Shown here: positions 3 to 64,000 of the stretch, piece by piece
Layout: the number at the start of each line of letters is the position of its first letter
Numbering within the stretch: position 1 is the stretch's first letter
The notes under the pieces: model-generated
The model's input: the letters and a program-made list of their open reading frames with translations, nothing else
What the model was told of the DNA's origin: nothing
Databases searched by the model: none
Position numbers and translations under genes: made by a program
Assembly: GCF_000015045.1 (NCBI RefSeq)
Contig: NC_008609.1
Span: 992,001-1,056,000, forward strand
DNA from: Pelobacter propionicus DSM 2379
Lineage (GTDB): Bacteria > Desulfobacterota > Desulfuromonadia > Geobacterales > Pseudopelobacteraceae
DNA: 64,000 nucleotides
Reading direction: 5' to 3'

Positions 3-197
3 GAGATCACGGAGGAAAATACGACATGGTTCCGCTACCGTCGGAATATTAGAAGCATCACCATGATCACTGACTGGAACGGAGGACTGCTCATCAAGAC
101 AGGGTTTAACTATCCGGTCTATCTGTATGACGTATCGAGGGAGGACATCGGTTACAGCCGGAAGAAGGCAAGGGAGCTCATGCGGCAACTGAGGTAG
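3..197 (+). CDS. C-terminal part of an unknown protein
   Basis: An open frame enters from the left edge and ends at TAG 195-197. It encodes 64 residues rich in charged and aromatic residues (ends KKARELMRQLR). The alternating pattern TMITDWNGGLLIKTGFNYPVYLYDV suggests a small beta-rich domain followed by a short helix, but I do not recognise the family. The start codon lies outside the window. No gene overlaps it on the other strand, which supports it being real, but the call rests only on the open frame and the protein-like composition. Confidence 0.5.
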   Translation, partial: EITEENTTWFRYRRNIRSITMITDWNGGLLIKTGFNYPVYLYDVSREDIGYSRKKARELMRQLR

Positions 198-582
198 GAA
201 AAACCTGGGGGCGGCGGATGAACCTACTGTTATGCAGGGCTCAACCGCCGCCCATCCAGCATCCATGATCGTCAGGTCAGGGCCTGCAATGATCCCTCAA
301 TTAGCAAGTCTGAACCTCCCTCGATTATCGTGTTTACTCTCAATGGGATGACGCCGCGAGGAATCTATTCCTATAAGGATGTCTAACAACGTCCATGGAC
401 GTCGTTGGGGGCTGAGAAACGCCCCGGCGGGTCATGGCCGGCTCCGTTGAGGTTTTATGATCGAATTAGTTTCCGGACGGAAGCTGGATAACACACGGCG
501 ACAGCGGTAAATCCGTTGCGCCTTTAGACGTTGCACGTGAAAGAATGATGACAAAAGGCACACGAGAAGCTAAGATGTCGAC
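198..582. other. Intergenic stretch, no gene recognised
   Basis: I see no convincing coding frame here. The stretch holds a GC-rich inverted repeat (GGGCGGCGG at 209-217 and CCGCCGCCC at 245-253) that could terminate or fold the upstream message, and a perfect 14-base palindrome ACGTCCATGGACGT at 389-402. Neither is placed well enough relative to a promoter to call an operator. Confidence 0.4.
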
Positions 583-870
583 ATGAAACCTATCAACTGG
601 AACTCGGATAAAAATGTGGCGCTCAAAATTGAGCGCGGCGTCTCCTTCGAGGAAGTATTGGTGGCAATCTCGCAAGGAGCGCTCCTCGATGTCGTCATAC
701 ATCCAAACGAGGAAAAGTACCAGAATCAACGCATTTTTATCGTCCGCATTCGCGGTTACGCCTACTTGGTTCCCTTCGTTGAAACAGACGGAGAAATATT
801 TCTGAAAACCGTCATCCCAAGCCGAAATGCCACCAAAAGGTATATCTCAAAGGGGAAGAACAATGAGTAG
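583..870 (+). CDS. BrnT-like toxin of a type II toxin-antitoxin pair
   Basis: A 95-residue basic protein. The N-terminus has the NWNSDKN...ERGVSFEEVL pattern and the C-terminus has IFLKTVIPSRNATKRYI. These match the layout of the BrnT-like RelE-fold toxins, in which an N-terminal W-x-x-x-K and a C-terminal SR-x-A-T-x-x-Y-I segment bracket a small beta sheet. BrnT toxins are ribonucleases; that activity here is inferred from family. The stop codon overlaps the start of the next gene by 8 bases, giving the toxin-first order typical of brnTA. An alternative is a DUF4258-like protein of unknown activity. Family call moderate, TA pairing good. Confidence 0.65.
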   Translation: MKPINWNSDKNVALKIERGVSFEEVLVAISQGALLDVVIHPNEEKYQNQRIFIVRIRGYAYLVPFVETDGEIFLKTVIPSRNATKRYISKGKNNE

Positions 871-1201
871 AAAAGCGAAAACTGAAGATAAGAAATATGA
901 AGACGATATCCTCTCATCGTATGAGAGCGGTGAGTGGAAGTCTGTTGCAAATCTTGACGACGAAATAGTCCGGTATGCCTCTGGCGCTGCTGCTGCCCTC
1001 ACAAAAGACAAACGCATCAATATTCGCCTTTCTACTCGAGATCTGGAAGATATCCAAATGCGGGCTGCCGAAGAAGGTATGCCCTATCAGACACTGATTG
1101 CCAGTATCGTTCACAAGTATGCCAGTGGCCGGCTGATCGAGGCTGCACCACGTCCAACTAAGCGCTCAACCGGTCGTGCCAAGAAGCTGCGCGCAGGCTA
1201 G
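863..1201 (+). CDS. CopG/BrnA-type antitoxin
   Basis: 112 residues starting at ATG 863, preceded by AGGGGAAG at a good distance; the longer frame from 827 lacks a ribosome site. The central segment KRINIRLSTRDLEDIQMRAA followed by GMPYQTLIASIVHKYASG is a ribbon-helix-helix DNA-binding fold: one beta strand, then two helices. The N-terminal ~50 residues are acidic and mixed, suited to wrapping the toxin, and the C-terminus is a basic tail (KRSTGRAKKLRAG). By family it should neutralise the upstream toxin and autorepress the pair. No obvious operator was identified. Confidence 0.75.
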   Translation: MSRKAKTEDKKYEDDILSSYESGEWKSVANLDDEIVRYASGAAAALTKDKRINIRLSTRDLEDIQMRAAEEGMPYQTLIASIVHKYASGRLIEAAPRPTKRSTGRAKKLRAG

Positions 1202-1300
1202 CTCTCCCCCGTTGATTGATGTTCCCCCACCGCTACCTTCACAGCATGAACAGTGAGGGGGCGCGTCTTGAGCTTGTGGCAATGGTCAAGAGTTGAGACG

Positions 1301-1338
1301 CGACCCCCAAGTTGTTTACCGACCCCCAAGTTGTTTAC
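1301..1338. repeat. Perfect tandem 19-bp repeat
   Basis: Two back-to-back copies of CGACCCCCAAGTTGTTTAC, at 1301-1319 and 1320-1338. Just upstream, GGGGGCGCGTCTT (from about 1257) is a near inverted match of the AGACGCGACCCCC at 1296-1308. Repeated boxes like this resemble the multiple end repeats of IS21-type elements, so the block may be a relic transposon end; no transposase is nearby. Confidence 0.6.
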
Positions 1339-1340
1339 AA

Positions 1341-1387
1341 CGAGCAAGGGCCGGCCCGTTTCACTCGAAACGTCCGGCCCTTGCTCG
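1341..1387. terminator. Long hairpin between the TA pair and upp
   Basis: CGAGCAAGGGCCGG (1341-1354) is complementary to CCGGCCCTTGCTCG (1374-1387), with a second inner pairing of CGTTT and AAACG. The stem is long and GC-rich but has no clean T-run on either side. It sits between two convergent genes, which fits a bidirectional terminator, although a relic of a mobile element is equally possible. Confidence 0.5.
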
Positions 1388-1448
1388 TCTGTTCGGGGGA
1401 GGGGAGCAGGATTGACCTGCACCCTGCCGCGAGGCTGGCGCAGGAATC

Positions 1449-2075
1449 CTATTTCGTGCCGAATATCTTGTCCCCGGCATCGCCCAGGCCGGGAAGGATG
1501 TAGCCCTGTTCGTTCAGGCGCTCGTCGATGGAGGCAACGTAGATCTCCACATCGGGATGGGCGCGGCCGATGCGCTCCAGGCCCTCGGGAACGGCCACCA
1601 GAAAGAGCCCCTTGATGCGCCTGCAGCCGGTCTTTTTCAGCATCTCGATGGTTGTCAGCAGCGAGCCGCCGGTGGCCAGCATGGGATCGATGATCAGGGC
1701 GATGCGCTCCTCCATGCCGCTGGCGAATTTCTCGTAGTAGGCCACCGGTTCCAGCGTCTCCTCGTTACGGTAGAGGCCGACCACGCTGACCTTGGCGCTG
1801 GGGATCATGTCCAGGACGCCGTTCATCATCCCCAGGCCGGCCCGCAGGATCGGCACCACCGTGATCTTTTTTCCCTTGATCTGCTGGACGGTGACCGGTC
1901 CGGCCCAGCCGGTGATGGTGATGCTCTCGGTTTCCAGGTCTTTTGTCGCCTCATAGGTCAAAAGGCGGGCGACTTCGGACGCCAGTTCCCGAAACTGTTT
2001 CGTGCTCTGGTCCGCCTTGCGCATCAGGCCGAGTTTGTGCTGGATCAGGGGGTGCTTGACTTCGAAGATCGCCAC
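1449..2075 (-). CDS. upp: Uracil phosphoribosyltransferase
   Basis: 208 residues, the family's usual length. It makes UMP from uracil and PRPP in pyrimidine salvage in the cytoplasm. Visible landmarks are [11 protein letters not shown] (about residues 74-84), the PRPP-binding loop [13 protein letters not shown] near 126-138, and the C-terminal uracil-binding segment [17 protein letters not shown]. The start is GTG (complement of 2073-2075) with AGGAG about ten bases upstream. It is a single gene, divergent from the exonuclease gene to its right. Confidence 0.96.
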
Positions 2076-51859: not shown

Positions 51860-52060
51860 CTATGGCCTCCGGTGTGTGATGGTTGTGAGCAACGCCCCTG
51901 GAGCGCTTAGGGAATATGGACTTGGGACGTGTTGCCAAGGTCATACGCGGAAGTATAGTACGAATTTTACCGCGTGAATACAATGGAGAAATTATCATGT
52001 ACACTAGTGGCAACGGGTCACAATAAACGACGAATGGTCTCTACAGAGGAAGGAGTGCGT

Positions 52061-54178
52061 ATGCAGGACGTTTCCAGGGAAAAAGACGAGAACTCATGGA
52101 TACGGAGTTTGTGGGCACTGGAAAAGGGGAGATTGCCGGCGGATGGTGGTGCAGTCTTCAATCGGCTGATCTTTGCCGCGAGTCCCTATCTGCTGCAACA
52201 CGCTGATAATCCCGTTGACTGGTATCCCTGGGGGGAGGAGGCGTTTGAAACTGCGGCACGAGAGGATAAACCGCTTATGGTTTCAATTGGATACGCCACC
52301 TGTCACTGGTGTCATGTCATGGCCCGTGAATCGTTTGAAGATCCAGAGGTGGCGGCGATCATCAACCGGCACCTGATTCCGGTCAAGGTGGACCGCGAGG
52401 AGCGGCCTGATATTGATTCGCTTTATATGACCGCGGCCAGGATACTGACCGGTAGCGGCGCAGGATGGCCTCTGACGATTTTTCTGACCCCTGAGCGCAA
52501 ACCGTTTTACTGCGCAACCTATATCCCCAAGACAGGGAGCAACGGGGTTTTGGGTATTGTGGAAACCGTTGAGAAGATCAGCGAAATTTGGAATACCAAT
52601 CGAGATCTGATTAATGAAAATAGTGATACGGTTGTCAGGGCGCTGCGCGAGATTGTCGCTCCAGTCTCTGCTGATACCGATTTTGGCCGGGTTCTGGATG
52701 AGGCCCAGGCCTCACTGCAAGGGATGTACGACTACCTGAATGGCGGATTCGGCGGCGGTGCTAAGTTTCCGTTGCCGCATAATCTCTCCTTTTTACTGCG
52801 CATGTGGCGGCGGACACAGAATCAGGACATAGAAGAGATGGTGGCTTATACACTGCGCATGATGCGCGACGGAGGGATTTACGATCAGCTCGGCTTCGGC
52901 TTCCACCGCTACGCCGTGGATCCCGAGTGGCGTGTCCCCCATTTTGAAAAGATGCTCTATGATCAGGCTCTTATTGCGATTACCTGCCTGGAGGCATTCC
53001 AAGCCTATGGTGATGAATTTCTGAAGGATATGGCCATGGAGATATTCTCCTTTGTCTTTGATGAGTTGACTTCGCCAGATGGAGGCTTCTGTTCGGGGCT
53101 TGGCGCTGACAGCGGGGGGGGCGAGGGGTACTATTATCTCTGGTCGCGCGGGGAGATAGACCGAAATCTGGATGGGGAGACTTCCCGTCTCTTCTGCGAG
53201 GCCTTTGGTGTTACAGATACCGGCAACTTCGAGGGGGGCAACATCCTGTATCAGCCCCGCTCCGTCGCCCTGCTTGCCCGAGAAAACGGTCTGGATGCCG
53301 GAGAACTCGACAGGCGCCTGGAAACTGCCCGTGCAAAACTGCTGGAGGTGCGCGCCGAGCGGGTTAGGCCTTTTCGGGACGAGAAGATTCTTGTCGCCTG
53401 GAACGGCCTCATGGTTGCGGCATTGGCTCGGGGGGCTGCCGTGAGTGGGGAACAGCGACTGCTGGAGGCGGCCAGATCTGCGGTCAGGTTTATCGCCCGG
53501 AATTTGCACACTCCGGCGGGGCGTCTGCTGCGAAGCTATCATCAGAGCGTGGCCTCTGTGCCCGCCTTTCTGGAGGACTATGCTTTCCTCTGTTGGGGGA
53601 TGGTCGAGCTTTACCAGGTTGATGGTGATCCTGTCATGCTTCAGGGGGCGCTCGGTTTGGCCCGGGGGATGCTGGACCTGTTCAGTGACGCGGTAACGGG
53701 CGCTTTCTATGATACTGCTTCCGAAGCTGAGCAGGTCCTCGTCAGGATGAAAAACGCACATGACGGGGCAATCCCGTCCGGAAATTCCATTGCCTGTCTC
53801 TGTCTGCTGAAGCTGGGAAAGATCTGCGGTGATGAGGCGCTGACACATGCGGGGGAACGGTGCCTGGTCTCCTGGATGGGGAGTCTTGCGGAGCAGCCGA
53901 TTGCCCATATCCAGATGGTTACAGCCCTCGACTTCTTCCTTGGCCCGGATGTGGAGATAACACTGATTGGCGACCGAGATAAGCCCGGGGTAAGGGAGTT
54001 GCTGAACGTGATCCACCGATACTTCATTCCTGGTCTTGTCCTTCGATTCAAGGGGGATGGTGATGTATACCCCATGGTCGGCGGTTTGCCGACAGCGTAT
54101 GTATGCGCCAGGGGAGCCTGCCGCCCCCCGGTGAACGATGCGGCCCAATTGGAGCAACTGCTCAGTGAGATCGTGTGA
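52061..54178 (+). CDS. YyaL-type thioredoxin/glycosidase-fold protein (DUF255)
   Basis: 705 residues from ATG 52061, with AGGAAGGAGTGCG upstream; ATG 52034 and 51974 are possible longer starts. The N-terminal thioredoxin-like domain begins [28 protein letters not shown], the family signature, with a CHWC active site ([10 protein letters not shown]) and [11 protein letters not shown]. The remaining ~500 residues are an alpha/alpha toroid like N-acylglucosamine epimerases ([44 protein letters not shown]). The family's reaction is unknown. It is the last chromosomal gene before the tRNA fragment. Confidence 0.9.
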
Positions 54179-54221
54179 TGCTGTTGACTCTGTACCTACG
54201 CCAATAGCTGTGTCAGTATAC

Positions 54222-54251
54222 AAAAAAAGGACTTGCCGTTTATGCAAGTCC
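54222..54251 (-). terminator. Terminator of the (broken) tRNA-fMet gene
   Basis: On the minus strand GGACTTGC and GCAAGTCC form a stem around a seven-base loop, followed by seven T (the A-run at 54222-54228). It lies a dozen bases past the tRNA CCA end, as expected for a tRNA terminator. Confidence 0.85.
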
Positions 54252-54262
54252 TTGATTTTGTT

Positions 54263-54307
54263 TGGTTGCGGGGAGAGGATTTGAACCTCTGACCTTCGGG
54301 TTATGAG
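54263..54307 (-). pseudogene. 3' half of initiator tRNA-fMet (CAT), attachment-site remnant
   Basis: Read on the minus strand: anticodon loop CTCATAA, the 3' anticodon stem CCCGA, variable AGGTC, T arm AGAGG-TTCAAAT-CCTCT, acceptor CCCCGCA and ACCA. The CCC stem and C-A end mark initiator tRNA. To the 5' side the matching GGG anticodon strand, D arm and acceptor are absent: the next bases (GAAGA) do not pair. The gene is therefore cut at the anticodon loop, the usual crossover for tRNA-targeting tyrosine recombinases. An intact copy is expected at the far end of the island, outside this window. Confidence 0.85.
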
Positions 54308-54370
54308 TCTTCGGAGGCTCGCATTTTTATTTAACAAAATCAGTAGCTTGCAATGATATCAAATGTTTAT

Positions 54371-54442
54371 GTACCCTGAAATCTATCCCATATTTACCAT
54401 TTTGACCATCTTTTTTTTACCGTAGGGTACAAAATAGGGTAC
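54371..54442. repeat. Three AGGGTAC boxes beside the attachment site
   Basis: The word AGGGTACA occurs inverted at 54370-54377 and directly at 54424-54431 and 54436-54443, all within 140 bases of the tRNA break. Repeated short boxes beside a tRNA att site are the layout of integrase arm-type sites. The surrounding 54,308-54,686 stretch has no gene I can support and no integrase. Confidence 0.5.
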
Positions 54443-54686
54443 AGATTTTCCGGGGTCCGGAAGGGGGATTGACACCCCAAATTTCCAGTTCTCCCACCTT
54501 CTCACGTCTGGTCACATCAGCCAGTATTCAAAGAACTCTTTAATTTTTATTGTCTGCCCCTCGTGTTCTGTTTCCACGGGCTGAAGGGGTGCGTCTCAAA
54601 GCCTAAAGGGTGAGAAGCGACAGGTGTTTCTGTCTCTGTTCGGATCATGATACGAATTAATCGAAAATAACTCGGAGTAGATGTGA

Positions 54687-54966
54687 TTCGGTATCTTCCA
54701 GAATCGTCGGAGCTTTAATGTGGTGCTTAGATTCACTCCGGAACGGTCCCGCAGGATCAGGGGGGAGATCTTGCACGAGGAACAGCGGGAAGAAATCCTG
54801 GATGACGGCACGCTGATCCTGACAGTTCCCGCTCCCCAACAAGCGGAGATCATGATGGAGATTCTTAGACACGGCTCGCACGTGGAGGTACTGGAGTCAA
54901 CGTGGCTGCGGGAGAAAGTCGTTGTGCAGAGCTGGAGGTGGCAGTTGCCAGGTATTCATGCTTGTA
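54687..54966 (+). pseudogene. C-terminal remnant of a WYL-domain regulator
   Basis: The plus frame reads FGIFQNRRSFNVVLRFTPERSRRIRGEILHEEQ, then DDGTLILTVP and EILRHGSHVEVLESTWLREKV. This is the WCX tail of WYL-domain transcriptional regulators. A stop (TGA 54684-54686) cuts it at the 5' side, so the helix-turn-helix and WYL parts are missing. After REKVV the homology continues in another frame (AELEVAVARYS, stop at 54964-54966), so it is also frameshifted. It is a decayed gene end stranded next to the island junction. Confidence 0.7.
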
Positions 54967-55034
54967 GCCCCCCTCTGAACGCGTGTTGTCATAGGGAGAC
55001 AAAAGCCCTTGTTTGGAGAGAATAATTAAAAAGA

Positions 55035-55063
55035 TTGTTATTGGTATAATTGCTTGCTATTAA
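55035..55063 (+). promoter_or_regulatory. Putative promoter of the riboswitch transcript
   Basis: TTGTTA (55035-55040) and TATTAA (55058-55063) with a 17-base spacer. Transcription would start about 55,070, just ahead of the riboswitch aptamer. Confidence 0.45.
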
Positions 55064-55085
55064 TAATGTTTGTACTAACCACATA

Positions 55086-55172
55086 CTGTCACCGATAGGG
55101 CACAGCAGGGGCAACCCTGTGTCGCAAAGCTACCATCCTCGGGAGGGGATAGAGGGGTTGTCGAAGTGAGTG
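55086..55172 (+). ncRNA. GEMM-I-type cyclic-dinucleotide riboswitch
   Basis: The aptamer core is readable: AUAGGGCACA, then a stem GCAGGG-GCAA-CCCUGU capped by a GNRA loop, then GUCGCAAAGC (consensus GACGCAAAGCC), then a second stem AUCCUC-GGGA-GGGGAU, then AUAGAGGGGUUGUCGAAGUG (Geobacter consensus UAGCCGGGUUGCCGAAGU). The ends UCAC (55089-55092) and GUGA pair as P1. GEMM-I binds c-di-GMP; a Geobacter-enriched variant binds cyclic GMP-AMP, and I cannot tell which from this sequence. A terminator follows at 55,196. Confidence 0.75.
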
Positions 55173-55195
55173 TAGAAAATATTTTGTGATAAGAG

Positions 55196-55235
55196 CCACG
55201 CTTCCGTTTGTTGAATGGGGGGCGTGGTTTTTTTG
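55196..55235 (+). terminator. Terminator, probable expression platform of the riboswitch
   Basis: CCACGC (55196-55201) pairs with GCGTGG (55222-55227) and eight T follow. It lies 25 bases after the aptamer, the usual arrangement for a transcription-controlling GEMM riboswitch. Confidence 0.7.
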
Positions 55236-55249
55236 TGCTTGAAATTGTT

Positions 55250-55438
55250 GAGGCGGGATCACAGGGAGTTGGTCTTTCCGGTGGGCAGAAGAAGCGGAAC
55301 AACGTGACGGTGCCGTTCACCTATCTGGGGTCGGTGGATATGGTGAGTTTCGAGAGTGAACGGCCGATCAAGATGGTCTGGCAGCTCAGGTATGCGATGC
55401 CGGTAGAGATGTTTGAGGATAATCGAAGGGTTGGGTAA
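55250..55438 (+). pseudogene. C-terminal remnant of a DUF3427 helicase-type protein
   Basis: The open frame ends VPFTYLGSVDMVSFESERPI, then KMVWQLRYAMPVEMFED. The pattern 'P-(F/Y)-x-YLG-x-(V/A)-x-x-V-S-x-x-x-ERP-(I/M)-x-x-x-W-x-L-x-x-x-(I/M)-P' is the tail of DUF3427, the C-terminal domain of a group of superfamily 2 helicases found in defence loci. No helicase motifs remain upstream; the frame runs straight back into the riboswitch terminator. It is a stranded gene end, not an independent gene. The 106 bases after it lead to the next gene. Confidence 0.55.
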
Positions 55439-55544
55439 GGTTTTAGTTGACAGGTGACTAAAAGTTATGTCCCGATATTCGATTAAAATTATTTCCGGCA
55501 CATGTGTCGAAGTACCAAAATTACAGATTTTATAAAGGTGCAGT

Positions 55545-58500
55545 ATGAGTATTGATCAGCTCGCACATCAGTTGCATGATGTTTTTGCAGCTTCCAAAAA
55601 AGCGTATGCAGTTCAGGATAACGACGGTTACAAGACGAAATACGCAAGGCTAAGCCCTTACACAATAAGAAGAATGCTTCAAAATAAGCTAAGCATTATG
55701 ACATACCAAATGGTCAATATGAGCGATGTTAAATGGCTTTGCTTAGATTTTGATATGCCAAATCAAGTTATAGGTGAAGGGGCTGAACCTAAAAAAGACC
55801 TTCTTAAAGATTTGCTGCAAGTAGTTAAGGGTGCGTGTGTACAGTTAGATGCTCTGTCTATCTCTTATCTTGTAGAATTTTCAGGCAACCGAGGTTTTCA
55901 TATTTGGATCATCTTGGATAGATATATTTCTAAGGCTTTTGGATATGAAATTAACACAAAGATAATGGAACTTATTGACATTACAGAACCTTTCTCGGTT
56001 GATCTTTTTCCTACAACTGCAAAGATCTCAAAAGAAGGTATTGGAAAAGGAGTAAAGTTGCCTTGTTCATGTCATGTCAAATCAGGCTGTTATTCTTTTC
56101 TTATTAGTAATGTCTACGAAGCTGACACGATAAATATTTATAAAAATGAACTTAATAATACTTTTATTGATTCTCAGATCAGCATTTTAAATGATTTGAA
56201 ACGGCAAAATCCAAAAGAAATAATGAATGCACTTGGTTTGTCTGAACAATTAGTAGATAGGCGGAGTTATGATAAGTTTATAAAAACCTCGAGCATCACA
56301 GTGACCGGTGATGATGAGGTGTCTATTGATAGCGTATTGAACGACTTGTCAGGCTGTTCATTCCTAAAGGCAATATTGAAAAACTACAGACTAGGATTAA
56401 CAGAGAAAGAACGAGTCATAATTGTTGGCCTGTTATCTAAAATTCAGAGTGATAACGACCCCTTCTTCGGGAACAAGTTGCTTGAGGAATTATTCTCGAG
56501 AATGCCAAACTACAGGCCTGAACTGACACGGAAGAAATTAGAGTGCCTCAAGTTGCAGCCAGTAACATGTGAATATCTAAGACATTTTCGATCTGATGAA
56601 AAATGCAGTTGCTTAGATGGTACAAAGAAATCCCCTATAGAGCACATACGTGGTGTGGCAATTGCTGATAACGATCCATTTGCATATGAACCTATGGAAA
56701 CAGAAAAAGTTATTACTGCAGCCTCAAAATACACATATCAAAATGATGAAGTTGCAATGCCCACCGTATTACTCAAGCTAGAAGATATGAAGGGCAATAA
56801 TTTGGAGGCTGTGTGGCATTCGGTACTACATGAGGTAAGACCACTTAAAAAATTTTACACCTTCCGCAGGCAAGAAGAAGACAAAGTCAGAATACTTATT
56901 ACTCTTACTGCCAAAGAAAAGGTTCTAACAAAGTTGGCAATCAAAGCATTACATGCTTTTTATTACCCAGGTTTTTCTGACTGCAGTTATGGCTATAGAT
57001 TCAATTATAGTTTGTCAAATAACAACTTGTTTTATCCGTGGCTGCAACAGTGGAATATATTTACAAAAGAAATAAAAAACATTGTAGACGATGAAAATGC
57101 TGAAAGCATGTATGTAGTAAAACTGGATATAAAAGGTTTTTACTCGAATATTGACAGAGAAATGCTGCGGATCAAGTTGGTAGATGGTCCGACAGACGAA
57201 ATTCGAGTTGCGTTTAAAAGCCTTGGTGAGACTGAAATCGATAAAATTAAGGTGCTTGCATCATGGTTTATAAGCATTTGCGACGCTACCGTAGAGGGGA
57301 AAAAAGGTGTTCCGCAGGGGCCTGCGTTTGCAAGATATTTAGCAGAGCTGTACTTGATGGACTTTGACCGTTTTATAGAACGAATGGTATCAGGATCTCT
57401 AGGGAGGTACTTCAGATATGTCGATGACGTCTTTGTATTTGTCGATACTGAGGCCGAAGCAGCCTCAATATTAGCTTATGCCACTAATTTTCTAAAATCC
57501 TTGGGATTGCATCTCAGTCATGGTAAGTGCTTTGTAGGGACGATAGCTCAATACAAACCGGAGATTAGTAGATATTTTTCAAGGGCTAAGTATGTAGTCG
57601 ATCATGCAAAGCTTCAGACTGATCACTCCGGCAAAATCACGAATGCGATAACTACATTGTTCTCTTTGTTACGTAATGATGGGGATGGTGGACAGATAAA
57701 CGAGTCAAACCTCCCTTTTTTTCTGACTCACCTTTCACAGCATCGCTTGGTGCATGAGCGGTTAGTAAAATTAGAAGAATACGTCTTGCGAATGAATCGT
57801 GGACGAGGCTCGCTGTTTCGCAACTTTTTCAAAAGGTACATTGAGACAACTACGAATAGTCTTCGACATGTAGATGATCTACAAGCGTTGACCGGTGGTC
57901 TAAAACGTGAAGTGTTTATTAGCTCGATTTTATCTAAAATCATCTCTGGTGGTGATGTTAGCGCATACAAGAATGAACTTAGAGGTGTTTTAACAAAGTA
58001 TGCAATGAGCCAGGATTTGACAGTTGTAGAAAAGGAGCTTCTAGGAGTCATAATGTTGCACGATCAGGATATTTGCGATGTCGAGTTTCTTTCCAAGATA
58101 AGCCCCACACTACTTTCTGAAATAATGCAAGTACCTATCGCTAAGAATATACCGCCTGCTGTAGTGCCTTACATAGCAGCAAGAATAGTGGGTCTTGAGG
58201 CTACTGATTTTCTTCGTAGTGCGTATTCTATGGTACGTACTACGAAGTTGGAAAATGTAGTCGCGTATCGGGAGCTAGGTGCTACATTTTTGAAAAAGTT
58301 TATAAACGACATGGGCGCTAATCAACCTACTGATTACAAGTTTGAATTCATACAGTCAGTTGATGACGCTCAAAAATTCCATCATCTGCTTGCTTTTTTT
58401 ACGGTCATTGTTGAAGACGTTGAGGTAACTTTCGAGGCCATTATAAACGTATGGCACGCTTTCATGTACTTTCTTAATAATAGACAACTTGATTATGGAA

Positions 58501-61157
58501 AGAAGCTAGATCAAGATTCTTGGTTGGTCGAGTGGGATAAAATTGAACTTTTACCAGGAAAGGTGACTTCACTCTTAACCCTGAGCCTTACAGATGGATT
58601 TGTTAAGGGGTACAATTGTGAACTAAGGTTATATGAAGCTTTTTACAAAAATATAGTAATTCTCATGGTTGTTAATGAACCATCAAATGGCATAAGTATC
58701 ATGGAGGGTATATCTTCGCCATTAGCCGAAGTGCTTGAAAGGGATAAACGCCTTTACCTAAAATGGATAATTGAAGGTGGCAAGACTGTGCAACCTTACC
58801 CGAATAAAGCTGTATGCATTTCTAATATACTCATCAATGATCGTCTTGTTCTCCGTAAAGGGAATGACTATCTTGTGCGGGTAAGAAGGCTTGATCATGT
58901 GTCAGAATCTCTCTTGTCAGAAACAGGCATGGTGATACATGAAGAGGGCCAATGGGATCCCGGTTATCAAACTTTTACCTTTAACTTTAATGCAAAGAAG
59001 CAAACTATTGAAGAAATACTAAATGGGGCAAATTCTGTTCTTGCCACAGTCAGTGAGCTTATAAAGTTAAAATTTGGCATTGAATCGTCCTGCCAAAGAT
59101 GTTTCGGAAGTGACGCAGAGAGCTATTCAAGTACCGGTCAATTTGACGAGTACATTAGTGACAGTCTAAGTCCACTAGTACCGCTAGCATTATGCGATAA
59201 TCATATATTTGATATTACATATAAAAAGGTAGTGTCAAATTCAATTAATGGATTTTTAGAAATTGTATTTGAGAATATGGTGACTGTGAATAAACCTATG
59301 TATAATCTCAGATATCCATTTAATTTCTCATCAAAAGATATTGTAAAAAAGTTAGTCCCTCCAAAATTAAGAAGTGACAAAAACGCAATGTTGCAATACT
59401 TGAAACAAATGTACATTGATAAAACTATGAGTTATGACGACAATAATCCTTATGAAGTCGAACGAGCCAAAATATCTGGAATTATCAGATATAAAATAGG
59501 ACGTAAAGAAATTATCACTAGTACAGATATCTCAGGAATACTCTATGATTATCATTCGCTATTTGAACATAAAGATGAAAAGCATAAGTTGCTACTTAAA
59601 GTAACTGATATAAAAATATCACCAGACATAACTTCATTTATTGATATTTACAAAACCATTATAGTCTCAATTAATTCATTTTATTCAATGGCTCAAGATA
59701 CAGATACAATACCAAAGTTACCCGATCTTTTATTCAATGATTTAACCAGAATAGTAGTGACAGTAAATGGATTCATCGAAAATGGATTTGATGCTTTACC
59801 GATAGCTTACAATGAAGGGTTTCTCCTCAAAGAAGCACTTCCTTTGGATCTGACTTGGCTGAACCAGTGCGATATTACTGCAGATAAAATCAATGTCACA
59901 TTTGGCATTGATGAAACCATTTCATTCGGGGCGATAACGCTGTCAGCTGATGAAGCAAGTAATTTGGTCATGGTGATGGCGCTCGGTGGCAAATCGATTG
60001 AGTTGTCTAAATTCGAGATTGACACTGTTGAATTGATGATTAGTAACCAGTGCTTTTTGGCCAAACACGAGAATGAGTTACTTGTAATAGTCATGAGTTC
60101 AAGTGTTATGAGAACCTTTGAAGCCATATCGGCGCGGGCCTTAGCACTCAGTAGGACGAATGAATGGGAGTTGGGTCATAGCAGGGAATGTTATTATAAT
60201 ACTTTTGATGTTCAAGATGAATTATACAAATCTCGTTCTTTTAATGATGCTTTAGAAAATCTTATGTCCCACTTACAGTGTAAAGATAAAAGCCTTATGT
60301 TTTCACGAATTGCTGAATGGCTTCGGTTATTTAATCCAGAAGATCAGAAAGTCTTAGTAGAAGTTATCGCTGCACATCGATGCATCTCAGATGAAGACAT
60401 CACAAAGTTCCTTCGTTTTTTGGACGACAACGCGAGTACTCCAGGTGTTGTTATTGGCTCACTTAAGACTTCCGCTGACTTTGGAGGTTTATACCGGTTG
60501 CTTGCTGATGCGGCATATCCGCACGCAAGGAAGCTCCAACTAGATAGTTGGCCATCTCGCTTGATTGATCGAAGTTTATCAATAGAGGAACTGGTTGTAT
60601 TAAATGATGTGTTTATATCAGGAAACCAAGTTATATCTGCCCTAGAAAAATACTACTTCTTAAATCATGACCCGATACTTGCTCAAGATAAAAATTATCA
60701 TATGATTCCCGGTGATAACTCCTTAGCATTTATTGAAGTTGTTAAGAACCTGAAAAGAATCACTTTCTTTGCCGCTGTGTGCACTGAAACAGCACAGAAT
60801 GAGATCAAGCAGTTTGTAGAGAAATGGTATAAACAAGAAGTAGGGGTAATTCCAGAAATCATAGTTGATGCTGCATTGATAATAGATATTAAATCAGTAC
60901 AATTAGATAACAATCCCAATATATTAACTAAGTATCAAGGTAGATTTAGAGAGATGATCACAAAGGAAAAGATGTCTGCTATATTTGAGTTTAACGATGA
61001 CATTCCTCTTAAATTCTATAATGATCACAAAATACCAGACACTAAAAATCTTCTGATAAGAATAAAATCTGTCCCCAAAAGAGTGTTTAAAATTTTTGTA
61101 CTTCAACCTAAAGACAAAAGTGTAAAGCCTCTTTTTAACTGTATATTTGAACCATAG
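55545..61157 (+). CDS. Primase-polymerase / reverse transcriptase fusion protein (defence-type RT)
   Basis: 1,870 residues, AT-rich unlike its GC-rich neighbours. Residues ~60-185 look like an archaeo-eukaryotic primase: catalytic D-x-D in WLCLDFDMP (68, 70), VEFSGNRGFHIWI (110-122), DLFPTTAK and GVKLPCSCHVKSG. Cysteines 334, 342, 354 and 356 may bind metal. The reverse transcriptase spans ~440-690: VKLDIKGFYSNID, KKGVPQGPAFARYLAE and RYFRYVDDVFVF hold the three catalytic aspartates. About 1,190 more residues follow without a domain I can name, except a phosphoribosyltransferase-like loop near 1,682 (VVLNDVFISGNQ). It resembles UG/Abi-type antiphage reverse transcriptases; the subgroup is not settled here. 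Start has AAAGGTG upstream. Confidence 0.85.
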   Translation: MSIDQLAHQLHDVFAASKKAYAVQDNDGYKTKYARLSPYTIRRMLQNKLSIMTYQMVNMSDVKWLCLDFDMPNQVIGEGAEPKKDLLKDLLQVVKGACVQLDALSISYLVEFSGNRGFHIWIILDRYISKAFGYEINTKIMELIDITEPFSVDLFPTTAKISKEGIGKGVKLPCSCHVKSGCYSFLISNVYEADTINIYKNELNNTFIDSQISILNDLKRQNPKEIMNALGLSEQLVDRRSYDKFIKTSSITVTGDDEVSIDSVLNDLSGCSFLKAILKNYRLGLTEKERVIIVGLLSKIQSDNDPFFGNKLLEELFSRMPNYRPELTRKKLECLKLQPVTCEYLRHFRSDEKCSCLDGTKKSPIEHIRGVAIADNDPFAYEPMETEKVITAASKYTYQNDEVAMPTVLLKLEDMKGNNLEAVWHSVLHEVRPLKKFYTFRRQEEDKVRILITLTAKEKVLTKLAIKALHAFYYPGFSDCSYGYRFNYSLSNNNLFYPWLQQWNIFTKEIKNIVDDENAESMYVVKLDIKGFYSNIDREMLRIKLVDGPTDEIRVAFKSLGETEIDKIKVLASWFISICDATVEGKKGVPQGPAFARYLAELYLMDFDRFIERMVSGSLGRYFRYVDDVFVFVDTEAEAASILAYATNFLKSLGLHLSHGKCFVGTIAQYKPEISRYFSRAKYVVDHAKLQTDHSGKITNAITTLFSLLRNDGDGGQINESNLPFFLTHLSQHRLVHERLVKLEEYVLRMNRGRGSLFRNFFKRYIETTTNSLRHVDDLQALTGGLKREVFISSILSKIISGGDVSAYKNELRGVLTKYAMSQDLTVVEKELLGVIMLHDQDICDVEFLSKISPTLLSEIMQVPIAKNIPPAVVPYIAARIVGLEATDFLRSAYSMVRTTKLENVVAYRELGATFLKKFINDMGANQPTDYKFEFIQSVDDAQKFHHLLAFFTVIVEDVEVTFEAIINVWHAFMYFLNNRQLDYGKKLDQDSWLVEWDKIELLPGKVTSLLTLSLTDGFVKGYNCELRLYEAFYKNIVILMVVNEPSNGISIMEGISSPLAEVLERDKRLYLKWIIEGGKTVQPYPNKAVCISNILINDRLVLRKGNDYLVRVRRLDHVSESLLSETGMVIHEEGQWDPGYQTFTFNFNAKKQTIEEILNGANSVLATVSELIKLKFGIESSCQRCFGSDAESYSSTGQFDEYISDSLSPLVPLALCDNHIFDITYKKVVSNSINGFLEIVFENMVTVNKPMYNLRYPFNFSSKDIVKKLVPPKLRSDKNAMLQYLKQMYIDKTMSYDDNNPYEVERAKISGIIRYKIGRKEIITSTDISGILYDYHSLFEHKDEKHKLLLKVTDIKISPDITSFIDIYKTIIVSINSFYSMAQDTDTIPKLPDLLFNDLTRIVVTVNGFIENGFDALPIAYNEGFLLKEALPLDLTWLNQCDITADKINVTFGIDETISFGAITLSADEASNLVMVMALGGKSIELSKFEIDTVELMISNQCFLAKHENELLVIVMSSSVMRTFEAISARALALSRTNEWELGHSRECYYNTFDVQDELYKSRSFNDALENLMSHLQCKDKSLMFSRIAEWLRLFNPEDQKVLVEVIAAHRCISDEDITKFLRFLDDNASTPGVVIGSLKTSADFGGLYRLLADAAYPHARKLQLDSWPSRLIDRSLSIEELVVLNDVFISGNQVISALEKYYFLNHDPILAQDKNYHMIPGDNSLAFIEVVKNLKRITFFAAVCTETAQNEIKQFVEKWYKQEVGVIPEIIVDAALIIDIKSVQLDNNPNILTKYQGRFREMITKEKMSAIFEFNDDIPLKFYNDHKIPDTKNLLIRIKSVPKRVFKIFVLQPKDKSVKPLFNCIFEP

Positions 61158-61223
61158 TGATATTGCTATGCAGTGACAGAGACCCATGAGCACAGTACTT
61201 GATATAGACAAATAATACTTGCC

Positions 61224-62204
61224 ATGACCTCACTTACCATCTCCATCAACCTCTTCTCCTCCCTCTCCCGCGCCCCCGGCGCGGTCTGGACCGAGGCCAC
61301 CAGGCGCAAGGCGCCGCACAAGCCGTTGCTCCTCCTGGCAGTGCTGGACCTGGTGCATCGTGGCGTCATCACCTCGCCGTTCATCGCCGTCACCGCCGAC
61401 CTGGTGGAACTGAACGAGCTGTTCAACCTCTACTGGCGACGGGTCGTGCCGCTGGGCCAGACCAGTAGCATCGCCTTTCCCTTCTCCCGCCTCCACCGCG
61501 AACCGTTCTGGGAACTGGTCCCGCAAAGCGGCAAAACCATCACCCCGGCCGTCATCAACAACACCTCCTCGGTCAGCTACCTGCGCAAATACGCCCTGGG
61601 AGCAAAGCTGGACGACGGGCTGTTCCGGGTCATGCAGAGTGTGGAAGGGCGGGAGGTGCTGCGGGAAGCGTTGCTGCTCTCCTGCTTCTCGGAGGAGTTG
61701 GCGGCGCAGTTGCGGGAGCAGTCGATCATCAACCGCGAGGCATTCGACTACAGCCGGGTTCTGGAGGAACAGGCCCACCTGCCGCTGGTGAAGGAGATCG
61801 TGGAGGAGTACAACTACCGTCTGGTGGCCCGTGACCAGGGCTTCCGTCGCATCGTGGTGACAACCTACGATCACCGCTGCGCCCTGTGCGGGGTGCGCAT
61901 CGTCACCCCCGAAGGGCATACGGCGGTTGACGCCGCCCATATCGTCCCCTGGAGCAAAAGCAGAAACGACGACATCCGCAACGGCATGGCCCTGTGCAAG
62001 CTCTGCCACTGGGCTTTCGATGAAGGAATGTTGGGGGTATCCGACGACTACAACGTAATTACCTCCCGCCAGATCTCCACCAATCCCAACGCCCCAGGTT
62101 TTCTCTCAACCCTCTCCGGCCGCGGCATCATCCCGCCCGGGGACCGGGAACTCTGGCCCTCAAGACAGTACCTCGCCCAGCACCGCCGGGAGTGGCGGCT
62201 GTAG
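61224..62204 (+). CDS. HNH endonuclease, possible modified-DNA restriction enzyme
   Basis: 326 residues, GC-rich. The C-terminal HNH nuclease has CALCGVRI, then VDAAHIVPWSKSRNDDIRNGMALCKLCHWAFD, with two zinc CxxC pairs and the catalytic H. The N-terminal ~150 residues (RKAPHKPLLLLAVLDLVHRGVI, PFSRLHREPFWELV) resemble the sulfur-binding domain of ScoMcrA-type enzymes, which cut phosphorothioated DNA; that match is by eye. The ATG has only a weak ribosome site. It follows the reverse transcriptase gene by 66 bases on the same strand, but base composition differs sharply. Confidence 0.85.
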   Translation: MTSLTISINLFSSLSRAPGAVWTEATRRKAPHKPLLLLAVLDLVHRGVITSPFIAVTADLVELNELFNLYWRRVVPLGQTSSIAFPFSRLHREPFWELVPQSGKTITPAVINNTSSVSYLRKYALGAKLDDGLFRVMQSVEGREVLREALLLSCFSEELAAQLREQSIINREAFDYSRVLEEQAHLPLVKEIVEEYNYRLVARDQGFRRIVVTTYDHRCALCGVRIVTPEGHTAVDAAHIVPWSKSRNDDIRNGMALCKLCHWAFDEGMLGVSDDYNVITSRQISTNPNAPGFLSTLSGRGIIPPGDRELWPSRQYLAQHRREWRL

Positions 62205-62235
62205 GGGGAAATTATCCATCAGAAAAGAGGAAGTT

Positions 62236-63270
62236 ATGCTGATCAAACAGAAGGACGGTCGTCAGGAGGACGTCCGGGAACTCAACCGTCTGCTCACCTT
62301 GAACATTACGGCCAAGCAGCGTTTCGCCATCGAACGGGAACTGAAGTGTCTGGCCTCCGGCGACAGAAATGAGCAGAATTCCGCCTATTACCTGGATTTC
62401 AGCTACAAAGACTCGCAACACTGGGCAGTGATTCACGACCTTCGCATTGAGCACAGGGGTAGGGTGGCGCAGATTGACCACCTGATCATCAACCGTTTTC
62501 TGGATGTGTACGTCCTAGAGTCCAAGAACTACTACTATGGCGTGAAGATTACTGACGAGGGGGAATTTCTCGTCTGGGACGGTAAGGGGTATCAAGCCAT
62601 AGAATCACCGTACGAGCAGAATCAGCGGCATATACTGGCGTTGCAGCAGGCGGTTGCCGATAGAAATCTTGCGCCAAAACGGCTTGGCTTTGCCATACCG
62701 CTCAACTTCCGTAACGTTATACTGGTTGCTCCAACCTCAAAACTCATAAAACCGCCATCGGCCACGTTCGATCTCTCTGCGGTGATCAAGGCGGATGCCT
62801 TCGTTTCCGTGGCAGCAAAAAACGTGGAGAAAAAATCCATCATCGAAGCGCCAAAGATCATTGGGAGCGATACCCTGCGCGAGTTCGCCGAGAAGCTGGC
62901 GCGTCTCCATCGCCCCGGCTCAATCGATTATGCTGCCAAGTTCGGTATTAAAGAGGTAAGCATGGCGCAAGCCGTTACCGTGGCTCCGGTGGTTGCCATG
63001 CCGGAGGCCCCACCCTATGCGCCGGTTCCCGCAATGGTGGAAAAGAAGGCTGCCAAGCCCCTTTGCAAAGCATGCCGGAGCGAGAACCTTGCCATTGTCT
63101 ACGGCAAATTCGGCTACTACTTCAAATGCGGAGAGTGCAGCGGGAATACTCCCATACGAATCGGCTGCGGCAAGGATGGTCACAGCGAGCGGATACGCAA
63201 GGAGGGGAACAACTTCTACCGTGAATGCTCGGAGTGCGGGACCAGTTCTCTCTATCACACGAACCCATAA
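62236..63270 (+). CDS. NERD-domain nuclease-like protein with zinc ribbons
   Basis: 344 residues from ATG 62236 (AAGAGGAAG upstream). Residues ~70-180 are a NERD domain: GRVAQIDHLIINRFLDVYVLESKNYYYG, which keeps the D and E-x-K positions of the restriction-endonuclease-like fold. A linker rich in Pro and Ala (residues 238-275) leads to two C-terminal zinc ribbons: CKACRSENLAIVYGKFGYYFKCGEC and later CGKDG...RECSECG. NERD proteins are thought to act on DNA; the target is unknown. It lies 31 bases after the HNH gene. Confidence 0.85.
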   Translation: MLIKQKDGRQEDVRELNRLLTLNITAKQRFAIERELKCLASGDRNEQNSAYYLDFSYKDSQHWAVIHDLRIEHRGRVAQIDHLIINRFLDVYVLESKNYYYGVKITDEGEFLVWDGKGYQAIESPYEQNQRHILALQQAVADRNLAPKRLGFAIPLNFRNVILVAPTSKLIKPPSATFDLSAVIKADAFVSVAAKNVEKKSIIEAPKIIGSDTLREFAEKLARLHRPGSIDYAAKFGIKEVSMAQAVTVAPVVAMPEAPPYAPVPAMVEKKAAKPLCKACRSENLAIVYGKFGYYFKCGECSGNTPIRIGCGKDGHSERIRKEGNNFYRECSECGTSSLYHTNP

Positions 63271-63282
63271 AGATCGTGATCT

Positions 63283-63660
63283 ATGGCGCCTTGTCCCTTC
63301 TGTAATATTGACCATTCCCGTATCATGATAGCCAACGACCATGCCTTGGCCATTATGGACGGCTTTCCTCTGTCGCCCGGCCATGCTCTTGTCATACCCA
63401 GGCGACATATTGCATCGCTGTTTGAGGCGACTAAGGATGAGCGAGAGGCATTACTTGATCTGTTGGAACAGACAAGAACGGAGCTGATTGGACAGTACAA
63501 CCCCGATGGCTTCAACATCGGTATCAACGATGGCGCATATGCCGGACAGACCGTTATGCACCTGCACATTCACCTGATTCCCCGTTACAAAGGAGATCAA
63601 CAGGACCCACGTGGTGGTGTGCGCTGGATTTTTCCTAACAAGGCGGTGTATTGGAAATAG
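63283..63660 (+). CDS. HIT-family nucleotide hydrolase/transferase
   Basis: 125 residues. The histidine triad is VMHLHIHLIPRY, and CPFCNID near the start with PGHALVIPRRHIASLFE fits the family. The tail GGVRWIFPNKAVYWK is seen in HIT proteins that accompany helicase/nuclease clusters. HIT enzymes hydrolyse adenylylated or nucleotide-lipid substrates; the substrate here is unknown. It starts 12 bases after the NERD gene and ends two bases before the next gene. Confidence 0.92.
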   Translation: MAPCPFCNIDHSRIMIANDHALAIMDGFPLSPGHALVIPRRHIASLFEATKDEREALLDLLEQTRTELIGQYNPDGFNIGINDGAYAGQTVMHLHIHLIPRYKGDQQDPRGGVRWIFPNKAVYWK

Positions 63661-63662
63661 CT

Positions 63663-64000
63663 ATGTCAATACCATCAGCTGAAGAACAACTCAAGTTCAT
63701 CACAAATATCCAGCGAATTCTCGATGAAGGATCATTTGTGGCGACATACAAATTTGCCTTACTCATGTCCCTTGCTGACTATGCCATTAAGTCTGGCAAT
63801 GACTCTGCTGACCACTGCCAACTGACAACTCATGATATTGCAGAGAGTTTTGTTGAATATTATTGGAGGCAGGCGATCCCATATGCACATCATAAAGGAA
63901 CTGTTCGAGTTTTGAAACAGGGGACAGGGTTGCAGCCCGTTGTGATCAGCCGAATAATTGAACTTCATCAGCAATTTCAAGGATCATTGGCTGCTGTTCG
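63663..64000 (+). CDS. Start of a protein of the HNH-associated family (partial)
   Basis: 112 residues from ATG 63663 to the window edge; no stop is reached. The N-terminus SAEEQLKFITNIQRILDEGSFVATYKFALLMSLADYAI and then IAESFVEYYWRQAIPY match a widespread family usually annotated as HNH endonuclease and often encoded next to HIT proteins and DUF3427 helicases. The nuclease part would lie beyond the window. It appears cotranscribed with the HIT gene. Confidence 0.75.
   Translation, partial: MSIPSAEEQLKFITNIQRILDEGSFVATYKFALLMSLADYAIKSGNDSADHCQLTTHDIAESFVEYYWRQAIPYAHHKGTVRVLKQGTGLQPVVISRIIELHQQFQGSLAAV

Follow-up and report, generated by a model that had tools for sequence, protein, structure and literature searches.

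By its sequence, a giant gene of Pelobacter propionicus is a divergent member of the UG10/DRT7 group of reverse transcriptases (RTs), and we consider it probable that this gene is a one-gene antiphage system of the group's large form, in which a helical solenoid would hold the DNA product or complex and a tail with a PRTase fold would couple DNA synthesis or phage sensing to a response. The gene is contained in the window, the whole 64,000-nt stretch of DNA that was analyzed (C3:992001-1056000 of the 4.24-Mb genome). As the original prediction had proposed, a single intact frame of 1,870 residues (55545-61157, forward strand) combines a primase-type polymerase and an RT in one chain, and the matches to Pfam AEP-TOTE and RVT_1 both exceed the curated cut-offs in a profile search of the protein. 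The prediction had also suggested a defence-associated RT of the UG/Abi type with a primase fusion, but could not name the group. The group is UG10/DRT7 (PADLOC RT_UG10_large), and this match, the integrated element in which the gene lies and an adjacent HNH protein support the suggestion. The original prediction did not mention a c-di-GMP-I riboswitch or an 89-bp att repeat, nor what the C-terminal domain is likely to be. The coordinates of all features are given in Table 1.

Table 1. Features of the P. propionicus UG10/DRT7 gene and its surroundings (nucleotide positions are those of the window).
Feature	Residues	Position	Strand	Basis or remark
UG10/DRT7 gene (RT_UG10_large)	1-1870	55545..61157	+	intact single ORF, 1870 aa, ATG start
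PADLOC RT_UG10_large match to the protein	3-1866			model 2-1683 of 1688; 1118.5 bits
AEP primase-polymerase core (D68, D70, H119, D153)	26-188	55620..56108	+	Pfam AEP-TOTE, E 3.6e-12
Clade-specific cysteine cluster (C342, C354, C356)	341-356	56565..56612	+	11-protein alignment
Reverse transcriptase core (D528, YVDD 625-628)	446-665	56880..57539	+	Pfam RVT_1, E 1.2e-14
Probable helical solenoid	about 690-1078	57612..58778	+	AlphaFold model, pLDDT 64, pTM 0.43
Predicted PRTase-CE-like domain	1548-1870, fold core about 1614-1842	60186..61154	+	model pLDDT 77, pTM 0.76
att repeat, 89 bp, copy of tRNA-Met 3' part		54219..54307	.	identical at C3:1067149-1067237
c-di-GMP-I riboswitch		55089..55165	+	Rfam RF01051, 48.1 bits, gathering 35; 380 bp upstream of the gene
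HNH protein, phosphorothioate-DNA-binding restriction endonuclease-like		61224-62204		directly after the UG10 gene; NF045808, 131.8 bits, cut-off 180

Assignment to the UG10/DRT7 family

The next best PADLOC models after RT_UG10_large are UG10_small (377 bits, residues 3-769) and UG19, which at 108 bits is the best model outside UG10. These profile matches assign the gene to the 'large' form of UG10/DRT7; the family has already been named and the gene is not a new kind. It shares with the large form its domain order, its full length, the catalytic motifs and, apparently, its make-up of a single gene. However, the protein is only 22–27% identical to the full-length UG10 relatives, and it carries an extra cysteine cluster. 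The primase and RT halves are likewise shared with UG10_small, but the model of that form comprises 824 positions and is about 1,000 residues shorter.

The motifs of both polymerase halves are present. The primase signature that had been read from the sequence is found at the residues originally named, with DFD at 68–70 (D68/D70), SGNRGFH at 113–119 and DLFP at 153–156, and the AEP-TOTE match indicates that it does not arise by chance. The full RT core with YVDD that had been described is likewise present, with RVT_1 covering residues 446–665. YVDD at 625–628, in place of YADD, corresponds to a trait on record since 2014, when UG10 received its name out of a group-II-like set with valine instead of the YADD alanine (PMC4244168). 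Seven residues (D68, D70, H119, D153, D528, D627 and D628) are invariant in all 11 aligned UG10 proteins.

Both the primase fusion of the UG10 group and the idea that the primase primes the RT have already appeared in print (PMC8934634). A 2026 commentary describes preprint evidence that DRT7 synthesis is protein-primed and protein-templated (PMC13213688), and the enzymes from which this chemistry was obtained may lack the large-form C-terminus. The mechanism of DRT7 is called still under investigation in another review (PMC13314766), and three DRT7 preprints are listed among the references of PMC13174585.

Relatives and distribution

One scan of genome contigs returned 33 pattern matches and 11 relatives. 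Eight full-length UG10 relatives come from Bacteroidales, Clostridium, Spirochaetes, Pseudoduganella (Oxalobacteraceae) and, in Enterobacterales, Erwinia, Pantoea (two) and Phytobacter. L049 is a further relative beside these, and the L038 relative ends near a contig end. L043 and L044 are better matched by other RT or PrimPol models than by UG10. The domain order is reversed in a Lachnospiraceae protein (L043:3299-6127), in which the RT comes first and is followed by PrimPol. A Peribacillus plasmid carries a partial UG10 copy that reaches the start of the record, and an IS3 transposase is found at the other end of this circular record.

The large form is rare. A full-length copy occurs in one of 395 genomes of the phylum, which is that of P. 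propionicus itself, and the next best match among these genomes (G286, 166 bits) covers the primase-RT half and is cut by a contig end. Counts in three orders at E<=1e-60 were 1/349, 1/295 and 2/295, and the count in one class at E<=1e-40 was 1/245, with the centre genome included in each. No relatives were found in phage records, nor in viral contigs with a single-protein query; an alignment query of the viral contigs gave one match with 27% identity to residues 53–173. No copy turned up in E. coli genomes when the initial 4,000 bases of the Phytobacter gene served as the DNA query. The Phytobacter protein matched 10 plasmid records, consisting of the partial Peribacillus copy and nine records with RT-sized matches only. 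When copies of the last ~230 residues were sought in 198 genomes, the P. propionicus gene alone was found.

A whole-protein tree of 11 rows groups the P. propionicus protein with Bacteroidales and Firmicutes relatives. It joins L034 and L032 (100/100), next to these are two Clostridia rows (100/100), and a proteobacterial-spirochaete clade stands apart. The cysteine cluster that had originally been reported is real, but it is restricted to one clade rather than being family-wide. In the 11-row alignment C342, C354 and C356 are all present only in P. propionicus, L034 and L032; C356 alone is found in L036 and L038, and the other six proteins have no cysteine of the cluster.

The P. propionicus genome contains a second, weak match to the UG10 primase (L002, at about C3:1389295; 22 bits). 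The protein appears by eye to be a TOTE-like AEP fused to a helicase, and it adjoins an integrase-like frame.

The C-terminal extension

The C-terminus of about 1,190 residues had been described as unassigned; part of it can now be assigned, to a probable solenoid at its start and a PRTase-like end. An AlphaFold model of residues 690–1870 (1181 residues), for which 10 sequences were used, is only moderately good. Its first ~390 residues match alpha-solenoids with a best Z of 11.4, which is under the trust level of the tool for repeats, and residues from about 690 to 1078 are probably a helical solenoid. A fold search with the 1181-residue model also places alpha-solenoids on top, with no match at E<=0.001. 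A PDB sequence search with C-terminal alignments gave nothing useful, and PHROGs gave one match, at E 0.08, in three proteins.

Residues 1548–1870 (323 residues), folded alone, gave a better model than the longer segment. Eight of the first nine rows of a Foldseek search of the PDB are orotate or uracil PRTases, the best E being only 3.7e-3. In VIA, PRTases and PRPP synthetases make up nearly all of the 50 rows, with 1rli as an exception, and the best match has a Z of 7.0 (119 residues, 3.7 Å, model 67–290), a value that is common by the tool's own scale. The top BFVD hit, at E 2.9e-5 and prob 1.00, bears the annotation 'PRTase-CE domain-containing protein'; its TM-score is just 0.33. Second and third place in BFVD are taken by uncharacterized giant-virus proteins, A0A481Z462 of Pithovirus LCPAC102 and A0A481Z243 of Mimivirus LCMiAC02.

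Profile searches point to the same type of domain. Counts for the C-terminus are based on 9 or 10 rows, as L038 stops close to the end of its contig and L032 is incomplete. When the domain was scanned separately, Pfam PRTase-CE matched 6/10 members at E<=1 (best E 1.8e-6), and every other Pfam family matched only one of the 10. The P. propionicus domain itself scores 24.2 bits (E 3.5e-5), short of the 27 bits set as cut-off. Scans with whole proteins found PRTase-CE in one of 11, nine of which reach the region, and in a profile-profile comparison (hhalign) against three PRTase-CE proteins the probability was 19%, for a helical stretch of 43 columns. Since 4 of 14 control genomes also contain matches that fall short of the Pfam cut-off, a match of this strength points to a PRTase in the general sense.

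Beyond UG10, the sole PADLOC models that match several members are three PRTase_III-A models, in 4/10, 3/10 and 2/10 of the domains. The match covers domain residues 19–249 in Erwinia (E 4.6e-5) but only residues 34–76 in P. propionicus (E 4e-4), and the Bacteroidales domain shows no match to PRTase_III-A. The same models match a PRTase-CE protein (L069:1369-2292) at E 4.1e-21, directly after which there is an ATPase-like frame by eye. Because this protein lies beside an ATPase gene, the PRTase_III-A match is not specific to retrons.

With moderate confidence, based on the predicted structure, residues 1548–1870 would adopt a PRTase fold akin to Pfam PRTase-CE (PF24390) and to the retron PRTase_III-A of PADLOC. 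The likeness lies in the predicted fold and in the order of motifs; taken singly, the scores are weak. By way of difference, the P. propionicus domain is fused to polymerases and falls under the Pfam cut-off, the PRPP loop lacks its first acid in all 10 UG10 domains, and no retron RNA was found. A link between UG10 and PRTases was not found in searches of an open-licence library, and the DRT7 preprints or the 2022 UG/Abi survey may contain it.

The PRPP-type loop, NDVFISGNQ, is located at residues 1687–1695. Its second acid (D1688), G1693 and Q1695 are invariant in 10/10 UG10 domains, as are D1645, G1648, N1835, R1839, S1842 and K1845. However, the first acid is replaced by N, A, S, V or T in every one of the 10, in contrast to the DD found in all three aligned PRTase-CE proteins. 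We read a loop that is conserved but altered as suggesting that a ligand is bound but that the PRTase chemistry has been modified or lost. As the first acid is consistently missing, the predicted domain probably serves in nucleotide binding or as an altered effector.

Proposed mechanism

The antiphage role of the P. propionicus gene is taken by analogy from the literature on the family. On phage infection, the primase-polymerase and the RT in one chain would make a DNA product that is non-genomic. From the same literature, this synthesis would be unusual in proceeding without an RNA template. In the large form the helical solenoid may hold the DNA product or the complex, and the PRTase-fold domain at the C-terminus, whose PRPP loop is modified, may bind a nucleotide-type ligand. 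This domain would couple DNA synthesis or phage sensing to a response, and we favor such a regulatory role over that of a captured effector.

A different reading, which we regard as possible but rather unlikely, is that the PRTase-fold domain is a toxic effector, comparable to those of type III retrons. The polymerase half would silence this domain and phage infection would release it, so that DNA synthesis would be the lock and not the weapon. The PRTase_III-A models, the only other PADLOC families with several member matches, are consistent with this reading, and type III-A1 retrons typically have PRTase and WH genes as their effectors (PMC12548924). Additionally, the nine residues invariant in 10/10 domains (D1645, G1648, D1688, G1693, Q1695, N1835, R1839, S1842 and K1845) indicate a site under selection. 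However, the replacement of the first acid of the PRPP loop in all 10 domains, where the three PRTase-CE proteins have DD, argues against this reading. The match of the retron models to the ATPase-adjacent PRTase-CE protein also weakens the retron connection, and the existence of the UG10_small model, with its 824 positions, suggests that the polymerase half works without the domain.

A related proposal would have DRT7-large combine a primase-RT DNA writer with a captured retron III-A/PRTase-CE effector whose PRPP loop has been remade, giving a sensor and a nucleotide-acting or nucleotide-sensing effector in one chain. We regard this fusion, too, as possible but rather unlikely; its odds are lowered by the match of PRTase_III-A to the ATPase-adjacent PRTase-CE protein and by the sub-cut-off matches of PRTase-CE in 4/14 control genomes.

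Genomic context

The UG10 gene lies near the left end of an integrated element that runs from window position 54219 to C3:1067237, beyond the window, and measures 21,019 bp with both repeats. The second att copy, which has no mismatch, ends inside an intact tRNA-Met gene, and a phage-type integrase (L061:11834-13144) is found beside it. The cargo of the element comprises two HNH proteins, NERD, HIT and DUF6880 proteins, a DDE transposase and, by eye, an IstA/IstB-like pair. This 21-kb element at tRNA-Met is a small defence-type cargo island. The GC content of the UG10 gene is 0.371 compared with 0.551 for the window, and in all 11 loci the GC content of the gene is no higher than that of its own locus. 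No neighboring protein is common across the 10 loci compared, except for two matches to one L038 ORF. Upstream of the gene, a WCX-domain fragment (54720-55025) is probably the tail end of a regulator of the WYL type.

The c-di-GMP-I riboswitch is located upstream of the gene on the same strand; RF03168 also matches at this position, with 59.5 bits, under its cut-off of 65.9. If the riboswitch controlled the UG10 gene, defence would be tied to a second messenger, and only a T-tailed hairpin (about 55192-55236, by eye) and a short remnant frame (55229-55435, without a Pfam match at E<=0.01) lie in between. However, stretches similar to the riboswitch occur at four further places in the P. propionicus genome, and no c-di-GMP riboswitch reaches the gathering score in eight related loci. 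For these two reasons it looks like a local relic, and we think such control improbable.

We also considered whether an overlooked non-coding RNA provides the template or acts as a cofactor, which is the case for DRT2, DRT3 and DRT9. Some 400 largely non-coding nucleotides 5' of the gene are kept between the two Pantoea loci, but their 75% identity is lower than the 87% of the gene itself. Other pairs among the 11 loci, one of which has just 81 nt upstream, share upstream matches of at most 23 nt, and some of the contigs compared offer little or no flanking sequence. The sole longer downstream match (L035/L037, 116 nt) is oppositely oriented in the two loci. In eight related loci the RNAs at Rfam gathering score are tmRNA, isrN and three tRNA rows, none of which recurs beside the gene. 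On the flanks compared, we consider an RNA partner of this kind improbable. The isrN match lies about 0.9 kb after the Erwinia UG10 gene. The 116-nt segment (L035:14496-14611 and L037:14447-14562; 85% identity) is found shortly after the Erwinia and Pantoea UG10 genes.

Relation to CRISPR-associated, intron and retron enzymes

The original prediction placed the primase at residues 60–185, and in sequence comparisons residues 26–188 and 51–350 match AEP primases. The best PDB sequence matches, at residues 12–201, are chains 7nqd (E 3.4e-15) and 7nqf (E 3.5e-15), which we take to be CRISPR-associated primase-polymerase chains; the Drt2 and Drt3a reverse transcriptases come next. The NF040561 PrimPol model scores 95.1 bits over residues 51–350. 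The protein thus resembles CRISPR-associated PrimPol (NF040561; 7nqd, 7nqf) in its AEP similarity at residues 12–201 and 51–350, but it falls under the 200-bit cut-off of the family and CRISPR repeats were not found in window positions 52000-64000. We give almost no credence to an origin of the PrimPol-RT as a CRISPR adaptation module without its former array: the NF040561 score, the PADLOC PrimPol match and the two PDB chains are compatible with it, but the first is under its cut-off, the second reaches only 58.4 bits against 1118 for RT_UG10_large in the same library, and repeats are lacking in the part of the window searched.

The original prediction had reported no CRISPR, group II intron or retron RNA around the gene, and none was found here. 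No direct repeats of at least 22 nt occur in window positions 52000-64000, the part covered by the CRISPR search, and no intron or retron RNA reaches Rfam gathering scores in the whole 64,000-nt window. Few retron RNAs are represented in Rfam.

By profile score the RT itself does not fall within group II introns or retrons, being far under both cut-offs. The maturase RT model gives 67.9 bits against a cut-off of 300, with no intron at Rfam gathering score, and we rejected a group II intron RT. A retron RT was rejected as well, with 29.9 bits for retron_St85 against a cut-off of 235; this is the sole retron RT model that matches, and other retron types may lack one. An RT-domain tree was built from 20 of the 23 rows of the RT set, with L017, L025 and L027 left out. 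A branch with 42/88 support has the UG10 rows as one of its sides and the two LtrA references fall elsewhere, in a tree of weak resolution with several long branches and few labelled references.

Implications

UG10/DRT7 is already known and is actively studied, and the present analysis adds a candidate identity for the end of the large-form C-terminal extension, a PRTase-like domain akin to effectors of other conflict systems, both RT-based and ATPase-linked. If this identity is correct, a shared module would link classes of defence RTs, and D1688 and R1839 would be the residues to mutate. P. propionicus additionally contributes a divergent representative of UG10 with a clade-specific cysteine cluster.
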